Shown here piece after piece: positions 29,722 to 37,303 of a stretch of 64,000 nt of DNA. Under the pieces are notes generated by a model. The model did not search any database and was not told the DNA's origin. It was given only the letters and a program-made list of their open reading frames with translations. The first letter of the stretch is position 1; each line of letters starts with the position of its first letter. The translations under genes and the position numbers were made by a program. The stretch is from Meiothermus sp. (lineage in GTDB: Bacteria > Deinococcota > Deinococci > Deinococcales > Thermaceae), in assembly GCF_026004055.1 (NCBI RefSeq), contig NZ_BPIJ01000001.1, forward strand, positions 620,001 through 684,000. The letters run 5' to 3'.

Positions 29722-30423
29722 ATGGAGTTTGGTTCGGCTTTTGTAGCCATTCTAATCATTGTGGCCCTCGAGGCCGTTCTTTCTGTAGACAACGCCATGG
29801 TGCTGGCCGTGATGGTGCGGCCCCTACCGGAGCACCTGCGCTCGAGGGCGCTGCTGTATGGCATTATTGGCGCTTACGTGCTGCGCGGGCTGGCCTTGCT
29901 GTTTGCCACCATCATCATTCAGATCTGGTGGATTCAGCTCCTGGGGGGGCTTTACCTGGTGTATCTGGCCATCAATCATATTGTCCGGCGGCAAGGCCAT
30001 AGCAACGCCGACCCCGCCAGCATACAGCAAGCCGCTGCCACCAGTTTCTGGCGCATCGTGATCATGATCAACGTGGTAGACCTGGCCTTTGCGGTGGACT
30101 CGGTGCTGGTGGTGATTGCCTTCAGCCGCGAGTTCTGGGTGATCTTTACCGGGGTGGCCATCGGGATTCTGCTAATCCGCCTGGCCGCCGGCATCATGGT
30201 CACCATCATCGAGCGGTATCCGCGGCTCGAGACCGTGGCCTACGCGGTGGTGGGTTGGGCAGGTCTCAAGTTGATGCTGGAAGGCTGGGGGCACGGCAGC
30301 GAGGTCTGGCTGCACCGCCCAGAGCTGGCGTTGCACCTACCACAGGCCTTTTTTCTGAGCGTCACCCTGGCCATTCTGGTGCTGGGTGGCCTGTGGGCCT
30401 TCCGCCGCTCGCCCGAACCCTGA
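29722..30423 (+). CDS. TerC-family membrane protein
   Basis: A 233-residue TerC/Alx-type protein with about seven membrane segments. EAVLSVDNAMVLAVMV in helix 1-2 and NVVDLAFAVDSVLVVIAFSREFWVIFTGV carry the conserved Asp residues thought to bind metal. Members export Mn2+ or support metal loading of exported proteins. It starts 13 bases after the esterase stop, with TAAGCT seven bases before the ATG (possible leaderless promoter). Unlike its paralogue at 31206 it has no riboswitch before it. Confidence 0.88.
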   Translation: MEFGSAFVAILIIVALEAVLSVDNAMVLAVMVRPLPEHLRSRALLYGIIGAYVLRGLALLFATIIIQIWWIQLLGGLYLVYLAINHIVRRQGHSNADPASIQQAAATSFWRIVIMINVVDLAFAVDSVLVVIAFSREFWVIFTGVAIGILLIRLAAGIMVTIIERYPRLETVAYAVVGWAGLKLMLEGWGHGSEVWLHRPELALHLPQAFFLSVTLAILVLGGLWAFRRSPEP

Positions 30424-31205: not shown

Positions 31206-31949
31206 ATGGAACAACTTGGACAAGCGCTGATCGTCATTGGAATCCTGATTGTCTTGGAGGCGGTGCTTTCTGCCGACAACGCCATGGTACTGGGGGTAAT
31301 GGTCAAGCAACTACCCCCTCCTTGGCGGCAACAGGCCTTGTTTTATGGCATCGCCGGGGCCTACATCCTGCGCGGGTTGGCCTTGGTTTTTGCGGTGTAC
31401 CTGATTCAGTTCTGGTGGATTCAGGCCCTGGGGGCCGTCTACCTGCTCTACATCGCCATCCGGCACTTCATCAAACGGAGGCCCAAAGAGGAAGCCCACC
31501 CAGATGTCTTGCAAACGCTCAAAACCGTAACCCCGCGCCAGTTCTGGACCATTGTGGCCCAGATCGAGCTGGCCGACCTGGCCTTTGCGGTGGACTCGGT
31601 GCTGGTGGCGGTGGCGCTTTCAGATAACCTTTGGATTATCTTTGCGGGCGTGTTTATCGGCATCCTGGCCCTGCGCTTTGTGGCGGTACTGTTTGTGGGC
31701 TTGCTGGAGAAGTACCCCCGCTTCGAGGCGGTGGCCTTTGCCGTGGTAGGTTTTGCTGGGGTGAAGCTGGCCATTGGGGGTTGGGACAAGTTCGCCAAGG
31801 AAGTCCTGAGCCGCCCCGAGTGGGTCACGGGGATAGACAAAACCCAGTTCTCGCTCTTCATTCTGGGGGTGCTGGTACTGGGTACTATCTGGGCCATGAG
31901 CCAGAAACCCAAAACCAAAGCGCTGGAGAACAAGCCCTCTGAGACGTAA
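31206..31949 (+). CDS. TerC-family protein, probable Mn2+ exporter
   Basis: A 247-residue paralogue of the protein at 29722. EAVLSADNAMVLGVMVKQLP and QIELADLAFAVDSVLVAVALSDNLWIIFAGVFIGILALRFVA hold the conserved Asp residues, and about seven membrane helices are visible. The yybP-ykoY riboswitch and terminator in front suggest that it is induced by manganese and exports it. The C-tail is hydrophilic and Lys-rich. Confidence 0.9.
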   Translation: MEQLGQALIVIGILIVLEAVLSADNAMVLGVMVKQLPPPWRQQALFYGIAGAYILRGLALVFAVYLIQFWWIQALGAVYLLYIAIRHFIKRRPKEEAHPDVLQTLKTVTPRQFWTIVAQIELADLAFAVDSVLVAVALSDNLWIIFAGVFIGILALRFVAVLFVGLLEKYPRFEAVAFAVVGFAGVKLAIGGWDKFAKEVLSRPEWVTGIDKTQFSLFILGVLVLGTIWAMSQKPKTKALENKPSET

Positions 31950-32006
31950 GCCTGGGCGCTATTTATCCCTCCTCGCACCCCCTGCAAATCTGGTAAGGTT
32001 GTGCCA

Positions 32007-33674
32007 ATGGTTTTTATACTGGCAATCCTGGCCTACCTTATCGGCTCCCTGCCCCTGGGCTACTGGGCCATCCGCCGCCTATCCGGACAAGACCCACGCC
32101 TGGCCTCGGCCTACAACCTGGGCCTCGAGAACACCCTCCACCGCCTGGGCCCCGGCCCGGCCCTGCTGGCCTTTGGCCTGGACGTGCTCAAGGGGCTGTT
32201 GGCGGCCTGGATAGGGGGGCGGTTTGGACTTTCCTGGGCTGTTGTTTTTGCGTTGGTGGTGTACCTGGGGCACCTCCACCCTCCTCGGCTTTTTTCGGGG
32301 GCGCTTTTGCGGGGGCGTGGCGCCGGGGTGCTTCTGGGCATCGTATTTGGCCTGTACCTGAGCGGTTTGCCCTATCTGCAAACCCTGGCGGTTCTGATGG
32401 TGGCGGCTTTGGTTTTTTTATGGAGTCGCTATGGCTCACTCGCGGCCATCTGCATCCCGTCCACACTGGCACTTTTGCTCTCGCTCGAGCCCATCTCAGG
32501 CTGGGCCAAGCTAGCCGCCTGGGCCTTGTTGCTGGCCACGCTTTGGCGCTACAAAGAAAACATCGGGCGCATCTTAGAAGGCACCGAGCCCCGCCTGGGC
32601 GAGCCTCCCCCCCTGCCTTCGGAAAAACAGGTGGTCTGCGCCTTTATGATTCATCCTCTAACGGTAGAAGACCTTTTCCAAAGCCCTCGTTTTCGTTGGG
32701 CCAAACCCCTGGTAGACCGGGGTTGGATTCAAATGAGCCTGGTGGAAAACCTGGCCGAAGCCATCCGGCCCATGAAGGTAGGTGAGCTGCGGGGAGTCAA
32801 AACCACCGATGGGCGCGAGATTCGCTGCCACCTGCTCTCGGCCCCCCTGCTGCCGCACCAGATTACCGGCAAGCCCGAACTCGCCACCCTCCGGGCCATC
32901 CAGGGGGCTCGCCTGGCACGGGAGCTAGGCTGCACGGTGGTGGGGCTGGGGGCTTTCTGGAGCGTGGTGGGCGAGAAGGGCCGGCTGGTGCAGGAGGCCG
33001 TACCCGAGATCGAGGTCACCAACGGCGGGGCCTACACCGCCGGCACCGTCAAGGCGGCCATCCCCGGCATCCTGGCCCACTTTGAAGCCAGCGGGCGAAG
33101 CCTCAAAGAGGCCACCGCCGCGGTGGTGGGGGCCAACGGGGTGGTGGCCTTTGGCATCGCCCGTCAGATTGCGCCCCTGGTGGGCAAGTTAATTTTGGTA
33201 GGGCGGAACCTCGAGCGCCTGGAAAAGAGCGCCTCAACGCTCAAGCAAAACCTAGAGCGCAAGGGGCAGCCGGTACCCGAAATCGTGACCACCCTGGAGA
33301 TGGCCGCCATCCGCGAGGCCGACCTGATCTTTAGCGCCACCTCCGACCCCCGGCCGGTCATCTTCCCCGAGCACGTGAAGCCCGGGGCCTGGATCTACGA
33401 CGAGGGCGTGCCGCCCGATGTGGACGAGTCGGTGAAAAAGCTGCCGGGGGTGCGGGTGATTCCGGGCGGGGTGGTACGGCCTCCGGGGGCCATGACCGGC
33501 AACCTCGACCTGCACTTTGGCGAGGGAGCCGTACCGGCCTGCCTTGCCGAGACCATGATTCTGGCCGCCGAAGGGGCCTACGAGCGCAAAAGCCTGGGAG
33601 GCGAGACCAAAAGCGAAAACATCCAGTTCTTCGTCGAGCGGGCCGAGGCGCTGGGGTTTCGGGTGGTGGATTGA
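32007..33674 (+). CDS. Fusion: PlsY-like membrane domain + acyl-ACP-reductase-like domain
   Basis: A 555-residue two-domain protein. Residues 1-200 resemble PlsY (acyl-phosphate:glycerol-3-phosphate acyltransferase): AYLIGSLPLGYWAIRRLSG opening, several helices, FGLDVLKGLLAAW and the closing RYKENIGRILEGTEPRLGE; but the PlsY GSGNxGATN loop is replaced by SAYNLGLENTLHRLG and the GGKG loop by RGRGAG. Residues 208-555 match cyanobacterial fatty-acyl-ACP reductase (AAR): LGAFWSVVGE, VTNGGAYTAGTV, the NAD(P) loop VVGANGVVAFGIA, GGVVRPPGAMTGNLDLHFG and PACLAETMILAAEG with the acylated Cys (about 512). TAAGGT ends seven bases before the ATG (GTG at 32001 is an alternative). Likely makes fatty aldehyde at the membrane; inferred. 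Confidence 0.82.
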   Translation: MVFILAILAYLIGSLPLGYWAIRRLSGQDPRLASAYNLGLENTLHRLGPGPALLAFGLDVLKGLLAAWIGGRFGLSWAVVFALVVYLGHLHPPRLFSGALLRGRGAGVLLGIVFGLYLSGLPYLQTLAVLMVAALVFLWSRYGSLAAICIPSTLALLLSLEPISGWAKLAAWALLLATLWRYKENIGRILEGTEPRLGEPPPLPSEKQVVCAFMIHPLTVEDLFQSPRFRWAKPLVDRGWIQMSLVENLAEAIRPMKVGELRGVKTTDGREIRCHLLSAPLLPHQITGKPELATLRAIQGARLARELGCTVVGLGAFWSVVGEKGRLVQEAVPEIEVTNGGAYTAGTVKAAIPGILAHFEASGRSLKEATAAVVGANGVVAFGIARQIAPLVGKLILVGRNLERLEKSASTLKQNLERKGQPVPEIVTTLEMAAIREADLIFSATSDPRPVIFPEHVKPGAWIYDEGVPPDVDESVKKLPGVRVIPGGVVRPPGAMTGNLDLHFGEGAVPACLAETMILAAEGAYERKSLGGETKSENIQFFVERAEALGFRVVD

Positions 33675-34426: not shown

Positions 34427-35079
34427 TCGAACCGATTGACATCACCCGCCCCATCTACCCCGGCGTTCCGGTCTGGCCCGGCGATACCCCCTATAGCTAC
34501 GAACTCACCGCCCGGATTGCCCAGGGCGACAGCGTGAATGTGGGCAAAATTACCACCACCACCCACCTGGGCACCCACCTGGACGCGCCCTGGCATTACG
34601 TAGAAGAGGGGGGCAGGTTAGAGAGCGTGCCGCTCTCGGTATTGGTGGGCCCCTGCCAGGTGGTGGACGCCCGGGGGCAAAAAGCCCTTTCGGTGGAGTT
34701 CCTAAAGGGCGTGGAGCTGGCCGAGCGCACCCTCTTCTATACCGGAGAGCCCAACCGCTGGGACACCTTTCCCCGCAACTTTACCCACGTGCTGCCCGAG
34801 GCCGCGTTGTACCTGGCTGCGCAAGGGGTGCGGCTTTTCGGCACCGACGGCCCCAGCGTGGATCCCCTGACCTCCAAAGACCTCCCCGCCCACCGGGCCT
34901 TTGCCCGGGGCGGGGTCTTCATCCTAGAGGGGCTGGCCCTGGAGGGTGTGCCGGCGGGCGGTTATGAGCTAATAGCCCTGCCCATGCGGCTTGAAGGGGC
35001 CGACGCCGCGCCGGTGCGGGCTATTCTCAGTCCAAACCGGAACCAGTCAAAGGCTCGAGCTACTCCACCTTCAGGGTAA
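34423..35079 (+). CDS. Cyclase-family hydrolase (KynB-like)
   Basis: A 218-residue metal-dependent hydrolase. DITRPIYPGVPVWPGDTPY at the N-terminus and TTTHLGTHLDAPWHYVEEGGRLESVPLSVLVGPCQVVD give the HxGTHxDxPxH metal motif; LFGTDGPSVDPLTSKDLPAHRAF follows. These fit bacterial kynurenine formamidase (N-formylkynurenine to kynurenine), but many cyclase-family proteins have other amide or ester substrates and no other kynurenine gene is here. Start overlaps mqnB by four bases; the last 20 bases overlap the convergent nuoN gene. Confidence 0.82.
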   Translation: MIEPIDITRPIYPGVPVWPGDTPYSYELTARIAQGDSVNVGKITTTTHLGTHLDAPWHYVEEGGRLESVPLSVLVGPCQVVDARGQKALSVEFLKGVELAERTLFYTGEPNRWDTFPRNFTHVLPEAALYLAAQGVRLFGTDGPSVDPLTSKDLPAHRAFARGGVFILEGLALEGVPAGGYELIALPMRLEGADAAPVRAILSPNRNQSKARATPPSG

Positions 35080-37303
35080 TCGTCGCAAGTGGGGGTTCGG
35101 ACTGGGGCCTGCCGGTCTCGCGCACTTCGTAGGTAATCTCACCGGGGCCGGGGTCGGAAAAGTAGCTCCAGCCGCAGGCCGCACTCAGCGGAATCTCCTT
35201 GCGCCCTATAATCCGATCCCCCCGCCGCACCAGCACAGTGTAGCTGCTGGCCGAGCCCACCCCGCCAAAGCGGAAGGGCCTCGAGACCGTCCCCCCTGCT
35301 TGCAGGTTGGAAAGCGCGAAGCTCTGGCTACAGGTAGCCCCCGCCTGGGCTTCAGGCACCAGTAGCGAGACTCGAGCCCCCGAGAGTGCGCCTTGGGGCC
35401 GCACCTCGTACACCCGGGTTCCGCCCGGTGGCGGCGGGACATTCAGGCTCCACTGTCCGTTGGCATCAGCAGTGACCCGCCCCAGGCTAGCACCGTCCTC
35501 GAAGATTTCGACCACCTGACCCGGCTGGGCCGTACCCTGCAAGGTAAAACCAGTAGCGGCCACCGTAGCCCCCTCCTGTGGTGAGGTAAATGCTGGCTCG
35601 GTGGGCAACGCGACGTTCACATTCGTGCTGGCGCCCATGGTCTGCCCAGCCCGGCGCGCCTCGTAGGTGTGGGCTCCGGCCAGCAACGCCGAGGCCGGGA
35701 GTGGGAAGCTCCACCGACCATCCGGGCCCACCGTTACCGTTCCGAGGGGTTGACCGTTATCGAAGAGCTCGAGGGTCTCCCCAGGCTTGCCGGTGCCCTG
35801 CAGGGTATAGCTGCCCGCGGTTAGGGTTGAACCACTGGTCGGAGCGGTAATGCTTACAGCAGCCACTGCCGGCGACAGGCCCGCGCTAAAGGCCCGTAAA
35901 CCCAGCCCGGGCAACACCGAGAGCAGGCCCAAAAGACCCATCGCGGCCCACAGCAGGCCCAAAGCCGGCACCCCCGTCCGCGCCGCCGGCGCCATCAAAC
36001 CTTGGGTCAGACCCATGGGCGCCGCCGCGACCGGAATACCTGGCGCTTCCGAGCTGCCAAACTGGGCCAGGGCCGCCTCGGCCTCGCGGTCTTCGGCTTC
36101 CTGCACGGGGGTGGGCTTGCTGAAAATCAGGAAGAAGGTTTTGAGGTAGTAGTAGGCCCCAATGGCCGAGGTTACGAGGGCCAACACCACCAGCCCATAG
36201 AAACCCGCCTGGGCCGCTTCCTGGAAGACCAAATACTTGGCCCAGAACCCGGCCAAGGGCGGCAACCCCAGCACCGAAAGAATGCCCAGCCCCATCGCCC
36301 CGCCCAACAGGGGTTTGCGGTACCACAGGCCGCGCAGGCGCTCTAAAGGCACGTCCTGGTTGGAGAGCATCGAGAGCACCGCAAAGATGAGCCCTGTGGC
36401 CAACCCATAGGTCAGCAGGTAAAAGGGAATGGTGGCCTGTCCGGTGGGGCCAAAGAGCCCCAGCCCGATGTAGCCTGCATTGGCGATGGAGGAGTAGGCG
36501 AAAAGCCGCTTGGCTTCGGTCTGGGTCAAGGCCCCCAGATTCCCGAACAGGGTGGTCAGGGCGATCAGCAGCGCCATACCCACTCCCCAGGCTTCCAGGC
36601 CCAGGGGGGTAAAGATGCGCAGCATGGCCGCGAACGCCGCCGCCTTGACCGCCGTGGCCATGAATAGCGTGACCACCGTGGGGCTACCCTGGTACACGTC
36701 GGGCGACCACCACTGGAAGGGCACCATGGCGGTCTTGAAGGCAAAGGCCGCCATAATCAAGAACAAGCCAGCCAGATAAAGCGGCCCGGAGCCCGGGGCC
36801 CCCACCATAAAGCTGCCGGTTGCGCCAAAGTAGAGGGCGATACCATAGAGAAATATAGCCGCCCCCAAAGCCCCCAGCAAAAAATACTTAAGGCCCGCCT
36901 CAAAGCCTTTCTCATCGCGCTGCCAGGTAGCCAGAACATACAGAGGCAGCGAGAAGACCTCGAGGGCAATCACCAGCACCACCAGATTGGGGCTGCTAGC
37001 CATGATGTGCATGCCAGTCACGGCAAAAAGCACCAGGAGCGGAAACTCGAACTTCTTGGCAGGGCCCAGCAAGAGCGTCCACAAGCCCCCCAGAATGGCC
37101 ACCAGGGTCAGGCCCCGGGCCAGGGTGTCGAAGCGATACAGACCCCCAAAAGCTTCCACCGTCTGGCCCCAGCCCACCACACAAAACAGCCCCGCCAGCA
37201 CCAGGCCCGCCACCGTCGCGATGCGGTTGGCCTCGCGCGAAATCAGGAAGGCCAGCAACGAGAGCACCGTGGCGAAGCCTGCCAGCAAGTACAGCGTCAG
37301 CAT
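35060..37303 (-). CDS. nuoN: NADH-quinone oxidoreductase subunit N with Ig-like C-terminal extension
   Basis: A 747-residue protein where about 430-480 is usual. Residues 1-470 are the antiporter-like NuoN with some 14 helices (ALEVFSLPLYVLATWQRDEKGFEAGLKYFLLGALGAAI, FKTAMVPFQWWSPDVYQGSPTVVT, QTEAKRLFAYSSIANAGYIGLG). Residues 481-747 are extra: two similar Ig-like repeats (SITAPTSGSTL...LQGTGKPGETLELFDNGQPLGTVTVGPDGRWSF and AFTSPQEGATV...LQGTAQPGQVVEIFEDGASLGRVTADANGQWSL), then a third beta domain with Cys658 and Cys710. By NuoN topology the extension should be periplasmic. GGAGG precedes the ATG. Last gene of the operon. Confidence 0.9.
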   Translation of the reverse strand: MLTLYLLAGFATVLSLLAFLISREANRIATVAGLVLAGLFCVVGWGQTVEAFGGLYRFDTLARGLTLVAILGGLWTLLLGPAKKFEFPLLVLFAVTGMHIMASSPNLVVLVIALEVFSLPLYVLATWQRDEKGFEAGLKYFLLGALGAAIFLYGIALYFGATGSFMVGAPGSGPLYLAGLFLIMAAFAFKTAMVPFQWWSPDVYQGSPTVVTLFMATAVKAAAFAAMLRIFTPLGLEAWGVGMALLIALTTLFGNLGALTQTEAKRLFAYSSIANAGYIGLGLFGPTGQATIPFYLLTYGLATGLIFAVLSMLSNQDVPLERLRGLWYRKPLLGGAMGLGILSVLGLPPLAGFWAKYLVFQEAAQAGFYGLVVLALVTSAIGAYYYLKTFFLIFSKPTPVQEAEDREAEAALAQFGSSEAPGIPVAAAPMGLTQGLMAPAARTGVPALGLLWAAMGLLGLLSVLPGLGLRAFSAGLSPAVAAVSITAPTSGSTLTAGSYTLQGTGKPGETLELFDNGQPLGTVTVGPDGRWSFPLPASALLAGAHTYEARRAGQTMGASTNVNVALPTEPAFTSPQEGATVAATGFTLQGTAQPGQVVEIFEDGASLGRVTADANGQWSLNVPPPPGGTRVYEVRPQGALSGARVSLLVPEAQAGATCSQSFALSNLQAGGTVSRPFRFGGVGSASSYTVLVRRGDRIIGRKEIPLSAACGWSYFSDPGPGEITYEVRETGRPQSEPPLATITLKVE

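Follow-up and report, generated by a model that had tools for sequence, protein, structure and literature searches.

What does a protein do when its N-terminal half resembles a glycerolipid acyltransferase and its C-terminal half an enzyme that makes fatty aldehydes? The question is raised by a gene at positions 32007..33674 on the forward strand of the window, the whole 64,000-nucleotide stretch of Meiothermus DNA analysed here. An ATG at 32007 opens a single uninterrupted frame that ends with a stop at 33674 and encodes 555 amino acids, and domain, homology and conservation searches mark the product as a fusion of a PlsY-like and an acyl-ACP-reductase-like protein. A preliminary description, made from the letters of the DNA, had proposed this pairing within one frame, and the domain search of both halves that it suggested bears it out, with 97.8 bits for the Pfam family PF02660 and, in the other half, 97.6 bits for PigE and 56.5 bits for acyl-ACP reductase (AAR). 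Structure prediction, also suggested there, gave an AlphaFold model (22 diverse orthologs) with a mean pLDDT of 89.2 and a pTM of 0.82. Both folds are shown in this model, as predicted domains: Foldseek aligned the N-terminal part with PlsY 5xj7 (TMt 0.82, rmsd 2.8) and the C-terminal part with AAR 6jzu (E 3e-20, TMt 0.75).

The gene also seems to have a promoter element of its own. By its match to the consensus, TAAGGT at 31994..31999 on the forward strand, 7 nt 5′ of the start codon, is a putative leaderless-type -10 element lying right before the start. A TANNNT element stands 6-9 nt ahead of the start in most genomes inspected, across families; at this place most Meiothermus genomes have TAAGGT or TAAGTT, every Thermus shown has TAAACT, genome G041 has TACAAT, and loci of families f5 and f3 have TAGAAT or TATAAT and TAAAAT, respectively.

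Distribution and surroundings of the fusion

With the whole protein as query, all 111 genomes of the phylum, from five families, were matched, and with the reductase half alone all 61 near relatives were matched, in frames that were nearly always of fusion length. The whole-protein match was weak, at the level of PlsY, in four of the 111 (G080, G084, G085 and G103); G103 is listed as 96% complete, the other three as less than 80% complete. Both halves lie in one frame at 84 of the 91 loci inspected, and these 84 comprise 73 distinct proteins; the remaining loci are truncated at contig ends or lose the frame near residue 490. Since the fusion stands in one frame at 84 loci and in nearly all of the 111 genomes, it is no artefact, and the frameshift near 32600 that the preliminary description had suspected, like an assembly error, is ruled out. 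A break of the frame near residues 488-494 occurs only in L094 (Thermus parvatiensis), L096, G065 and G074, and is perhaps due to sequencing indels in a G-rich run.

The collections searched represented five families of the phylum, with the genus Deinococcus absent from them. One genome, G041, is probably that of Deinobacterium chartae (Deinococcaceae): no other genome in the phylum set matched DdrB as strongly, and among the control genomes only D. chartae is DdrB-positive. The AAR model also matches in D. chartae. The families f1-f5 were assigned by way of contigs shared with a scan of named genomes; on this basis f4 is taken as an Oceanithermus/Marinithermus-type family, and f3 as one of the Trueperaceae type. 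In a scan of contigs, Meiothermus species were the nearest named genomes bearing the fusion gene. Outside the phylum, one contig scan with narrow peptide patterns returned, besides phylum-labelled loci, only L129, labelled as an 'Armatimonadetes' MAG, and L123, a bacterial MAG without a label; because the patterns were narrow, absence elsewhere is weak evidence. A search of plasmid records found distant relatives only, mostly annotated as class III aminotransferases.

Upstream of the fusion, the window encodes two similar membrane proteins (29722-30423 and 31206-31949), which we take to be TerC-family paralogues; this paired neighbourhood is seen in Meiothermus and Calidithermus only. In Thermus and at many f4 loci the upstream gene, recognised by eye, is presumably that of ribosomal protein L20, with an IF-3-like gene further up. 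Downstream there is a PNP_UDP_1-family nucleosidase in Thermus and Meiothermus, and in Trueperaceae what we take, again by eye, to be PrmA-like and RsmE-like methyltransferase genes. On the reverse strand, 35060-37303 of the window encodes a NuoN (Proton_antipo_M) with C-terminal bacterial Ig-like domains (Big_6, Big_7). Some 14 of the 18 Meiothermus genomes keep this long form at full length, and in other families the match extends over the NuoN part only or is accompanied by separate Ig-like proteins.

The PlsY-like membrane domain

The PlsY-like integral membrane domain comprises residues 4-199 (32016..32603, forward strand). Its match to PF02660 (G3P_acyltransf) covers the full model and far exceeds the cut-off of 24.1 bits, and phmmer aligned the N-terminal half with Aquifex PlsY at an E-value of 9e-19. 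The PF02660 score and the Foldseek match to 5xj7 rule out an unrelated membrane family, the alternative raised in the preliminary description. The enzyme from Aquifex (5xj5-5xj9) is the reference PlsY with known ligands (PMC5700162). It shares with the fused domain the whole-domain fold (TMt about 0.8), His92, the glycine loop and the closing RxxGxE motif, whereas the fusion differs in having Glu for T41, Arg for K104, replacements at S35, H177 and in part N180 among the contacts of the glycerol-3-phosphate (G3P) clamp and 2-OH, and a reductase attached. The altered loops and retained closing motif had already been described, and we find them as stated: SAYN stands in place of GSGN, RGRG in place of GGKG, and ENIGRILEGTE is kept.

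Counted over the 73 distinct fusion proteins, the residues of the pocket fall on two sides. On the acyl-phosphate side, His89 (32271..32273, forward strand), the counterpart of the acyl-phosphate-binding His92 of Aquifex PlsY, is present in 73/73, and Glu41 (32127..32129, forward strand), at the position of the Thr41 that contacts the acyl-phosphate carbonyl (PMC5700162), is Glu in 71/73. The loop R102-G-R104-G that replaces GGKG (32310..32321, forward strand) has R102 in all 73 proteins and Arg in 62 or Lys in 11 at position 104, with its glycine G105 kept in 72. Two further residues of the domain, Asp59 and Lys62, are also fixed or nearly so. On the G3P side, the Ser35 position is mostly Ala, Pro or Val, and the His177 position is mostly Tyr, Phe or Gln, with His in 13 proteins; f3 has no Asn180, whereas the R45 position mostly stays R/K. 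Taken as a set, the contacts of the G3P phosphate clamp and 2-OH (S35, R45, K104, N180, S142 and H177) are not conserved in the fusion. In the Aquifex enzyme, changing residues of the phosphate clamp to alanine cost more than 92% of activity, and His177 could be replaced by no residue (PMC5700162).

Since the changes in the G3P clamp are themselves conserved, the fused domain is probably not a G3P acyltransferase, and we infer from these residue patterns a site that is conserved yet re-specialised, no longer acylating G3P. The same genome has a separate PlsY (L001) in which every pocket residue is canonical, which leaves the fusion free for a different job. Two further PlsY paralogues are present in this genome, L004 (G000:C3:383312-383821), whose pocket has neither Lys104 nor Ser35, and L002 (G000:C1:1138235-1138744), whose pocket has neither Asn180 nor Ser142.

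The reductase-like domain

Residues 207-555 (32625..33671, forward strand) form an AAR/PigE-like thioester reductase domain, as judged from profile matches and the Foldseek alignment to 6jzu. Among NCBIfam models, the C-terminal half scores best with PigE, which at 97.6 bits, against 56.5 for AAR and about 34 for glutamyl-tRNA reductase, is its nearest curated family; the PigE match spans residues 259-553 in the numbering of the GTG-start frame. Against solved AAR chains, phmmer gave an E-value of about 2e-13. The likeness to AAR through the NAD loop and the catalytic cysteine, another point of the preliminary description, holds up well. The dinucleotide loop GANGVVAFG (33129..33155, forward strand; GATGDIG in AAR) has G375, A376, G378 and V380 in 73/73 proteins and G383 in 72/73, and Cys512 (33540..33542, forward strand), located within PACLAETMILAAEG, is present in 73/73 and corresponds to Cys294 of AAR and Cys296 of PigE (PMC7089970, PMC8341465). 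D465, G467 and E515 are also invariant among the 73. Two arginines that hold the NADPH phosphate in AAR, R189 and R193 (PMC7089970), have counterparts in R400 (66/73) and R404 (73/73).

The cyanobacterial AAR (6jzq-6jzz, TIGR04058) thus shares the fold, the catalytic Cys, the dinucleotide loop and R189/R193 with the fusion. However, the fusion carries a membrane domain, falls far below the equivalog cut-off of TIGR04058 (449.7 bits), and in the window protein keeps neither Tyr247 nor Arg314 at the aligned positions, the latter, a third arginine of the NADPH 2'-phosphate site, being Gly. PigE and TamH belong to the same reductase superfamily, have the catalytic Cys, and take a thioester through an aldehyde to an amine; there the reductase is joined to an aminotransferase in one chain, whereas here it is joined to PlsY and the aminotransferase would be separate, the domain search having found no class III aminotransferase domain in the fusion chain. 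The TAD domain of the carmabin pathway (9e4s, 9e56), known here from PDB titles, which indicate no PlsY part, also matches the reductase half in structure, with a TMt of up to 0.69 and 16-18% identity. In AAR, an acyl-Cys thioester is formed and then reduced by NADPH to a fatty aldehyde (PMC7089970). That the fusion likewise forms a thioester on its Cys and releases an aldehyde is strongly suggested: the aldehyde formation that the preliminary description had predicted is well supported by sequence, model and precedent.

Fate of the predicted aldehyde

The reading that we favour, and consider somewhat probable, is that of a membrane-tethered fatty acyl reductase feeding alkylamine synthesis for the marker phosphoglycolipid of the phylum. 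The PlsY-derived domain would sit in the cytoplasmic membrane, where its partly retained acyl-phosphate site would take up a long iso or anteiso acyl group; since the G3P site is rebuilt, this group would not be placed on glycerol phosphate and would instead form a thioester with Cys512 in the soluble domain. Reduction by NAD(P)H would leave the chain length as it was and give a fatty aldehyde that stays at the membrane, and a separate class III aminotransferase would convert it to the alkylamine that is amide-linked to glyceric acid in the marker lipid. We infer the alkylamine fate with moderate strength. The choice of donor, acyl-phosphate over acyl-ACP, is suggested more weakly, because the acyl-phosphate site of PlsY is partly retained. 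In its fullest form, as a long-chain acyl-phosphate reductase that moves the acyl group of PlsX-made acyl-phosphate to the reductase Cys and so commits it to the glyceroyl-alkylamine marker lipid as the first enzyme of that pathway, the proposal is a tentative one.

In the marker phospholipid of the lineage, a long-chain alkylamine is bound to glyceric acid through an amide (PMC3398001, PMC3035268). This phospholipid serves as a chemical marker (PMC3035268); descriptions of it come from Deinococcus, Thermus and Meiothermus, and it is probably found also in Oceanithermus, Vulcanithermus and Rhabdothermus. A fusion found phylum-wide fits such a lipid well. In T. thermophilus the amine is iso-heptadecyl amine and the fatty acids are iso-C15 and iso-C17 (PMC3398001), therefore carbon is neither gained nor lost, and the carbon number of the amine is what direct reduction of the acyl group, followed by transamination, should give. 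There is precedent as well: TamH coupled to TamA turns fatty acids into fatty amines (PMC9594044), and PigE, with both domains in one chain, converted a thioester to the transaminated product in lysate, while reduction in vitro was not seen with purified PigE alone (PMC8341465).

On the lipid that the aldehyde would feed we differ from the preliminary description, which had suggested long-chain 1,2-diols. The same enzyme could supply an aldehyde for such diols, or for fatty alcohol lipids, and some Thermus and Meiothermus contain 1,2-diols, as Truepera putatively does, all in fusion-bearing families. This fate is possible because Truepera has compounds with chain lengths fitting 1,2-diols (PMC3072082), yet we think it unlikely: diols of M. 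ruber were reported in small amounts only (PMC3035268), no glycolipids were detected in Oceanithermus, whose probable family f4 retains the fusion, and the nearest homologous reductases supply aminotransferases rather than diol synthesis. The alkylamine is the better-fitting product because of the fatty-acid chain length, the precedent of PigE and TamH, and its broader occurrence.

What enters the enzyme can also be read otherwise. Carrier-bound acyl groups are used by AAR and TamH, so the fusion could take acyl-ACP or acyl-CoA as AAR does, its PlsY domain serving only as an anchor in the membrane or a scaffold that holds the aldehyde and taking no part in acyl-phosphate chemistry, as the replacement of T41, S35 and H177 might suggest. 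We regard this as a serious possibility short of a probable one, since an anchor would not need the (nearly) fixed His89, Asp59, Lys62, R102, R/K104 and E41 of the 73 proteins. Quite improbable, in our view, is a protein of two activities, in which the PlsY domain acylates some acceptor that is not G3P (for instance a derivative of glycerate or of an amine) and the reductase has a different substrate; the conserved PlsY changes do resemble shifts of specificity, not decay, but no acceptor for such acylation is known, and the fusion and the high pTM suggest that the halves work together. Against the alkylamine reading stands the neighbourhood clustering, which found no operon, conserved from family to family, that would tie the fusion to genes of lipid synthesis. 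The presence of N-glyceroyl alkylamines in some Bacillota too (PMC13274423), Moorella thermoacetica being an example, also speaks against it.

A search of the same genome with the PigE model returned a class III aminotransferase at G000:C1:693538-694767(-), equal to L134:9539-10768 and about 40 kb from the fusion. It is PigE/YgjG-like, scoring 411-421 bits with the aminotransferase half of PigE and 453 bits with the putrescine aminotransferase model, both below cut-off. Nearly all Thermaceae (f1), and f4 as well, have orthologs with 71-93% identity. None was found in Trueperaceae, Deinococcaceae-like or f5 genomes, which have only relatives of about 40% identity, and a different aminotransferase would therefore be needed in these three families. 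That the PigE/YgjG-like enzyme forms the alkylamine in Thermaceae and the Oceanithermus-type family is conceivable, and we offer it with some reserve. Downstream of it lies what we recognised by eye as presumably an RNase R-like gene, and upstream, at most loci, what we take to be thioesterase-like and glmM-like genes; the amino sugar in this marker phosphoglycolipid would be supplied through glmM.

In 2022 the enzymes of the third chain of this lipid were stated to be unidentified (PMC9636437). For the enzyme at the start of the fatty-amine chain in the group's signature lipid, the fusion gene is a strong candidate, and one that a knock-out can test directly. It also suggests a route by which a glycerolipid acyltransferase may have become a loading module for the production of aldehydes at the membrane.
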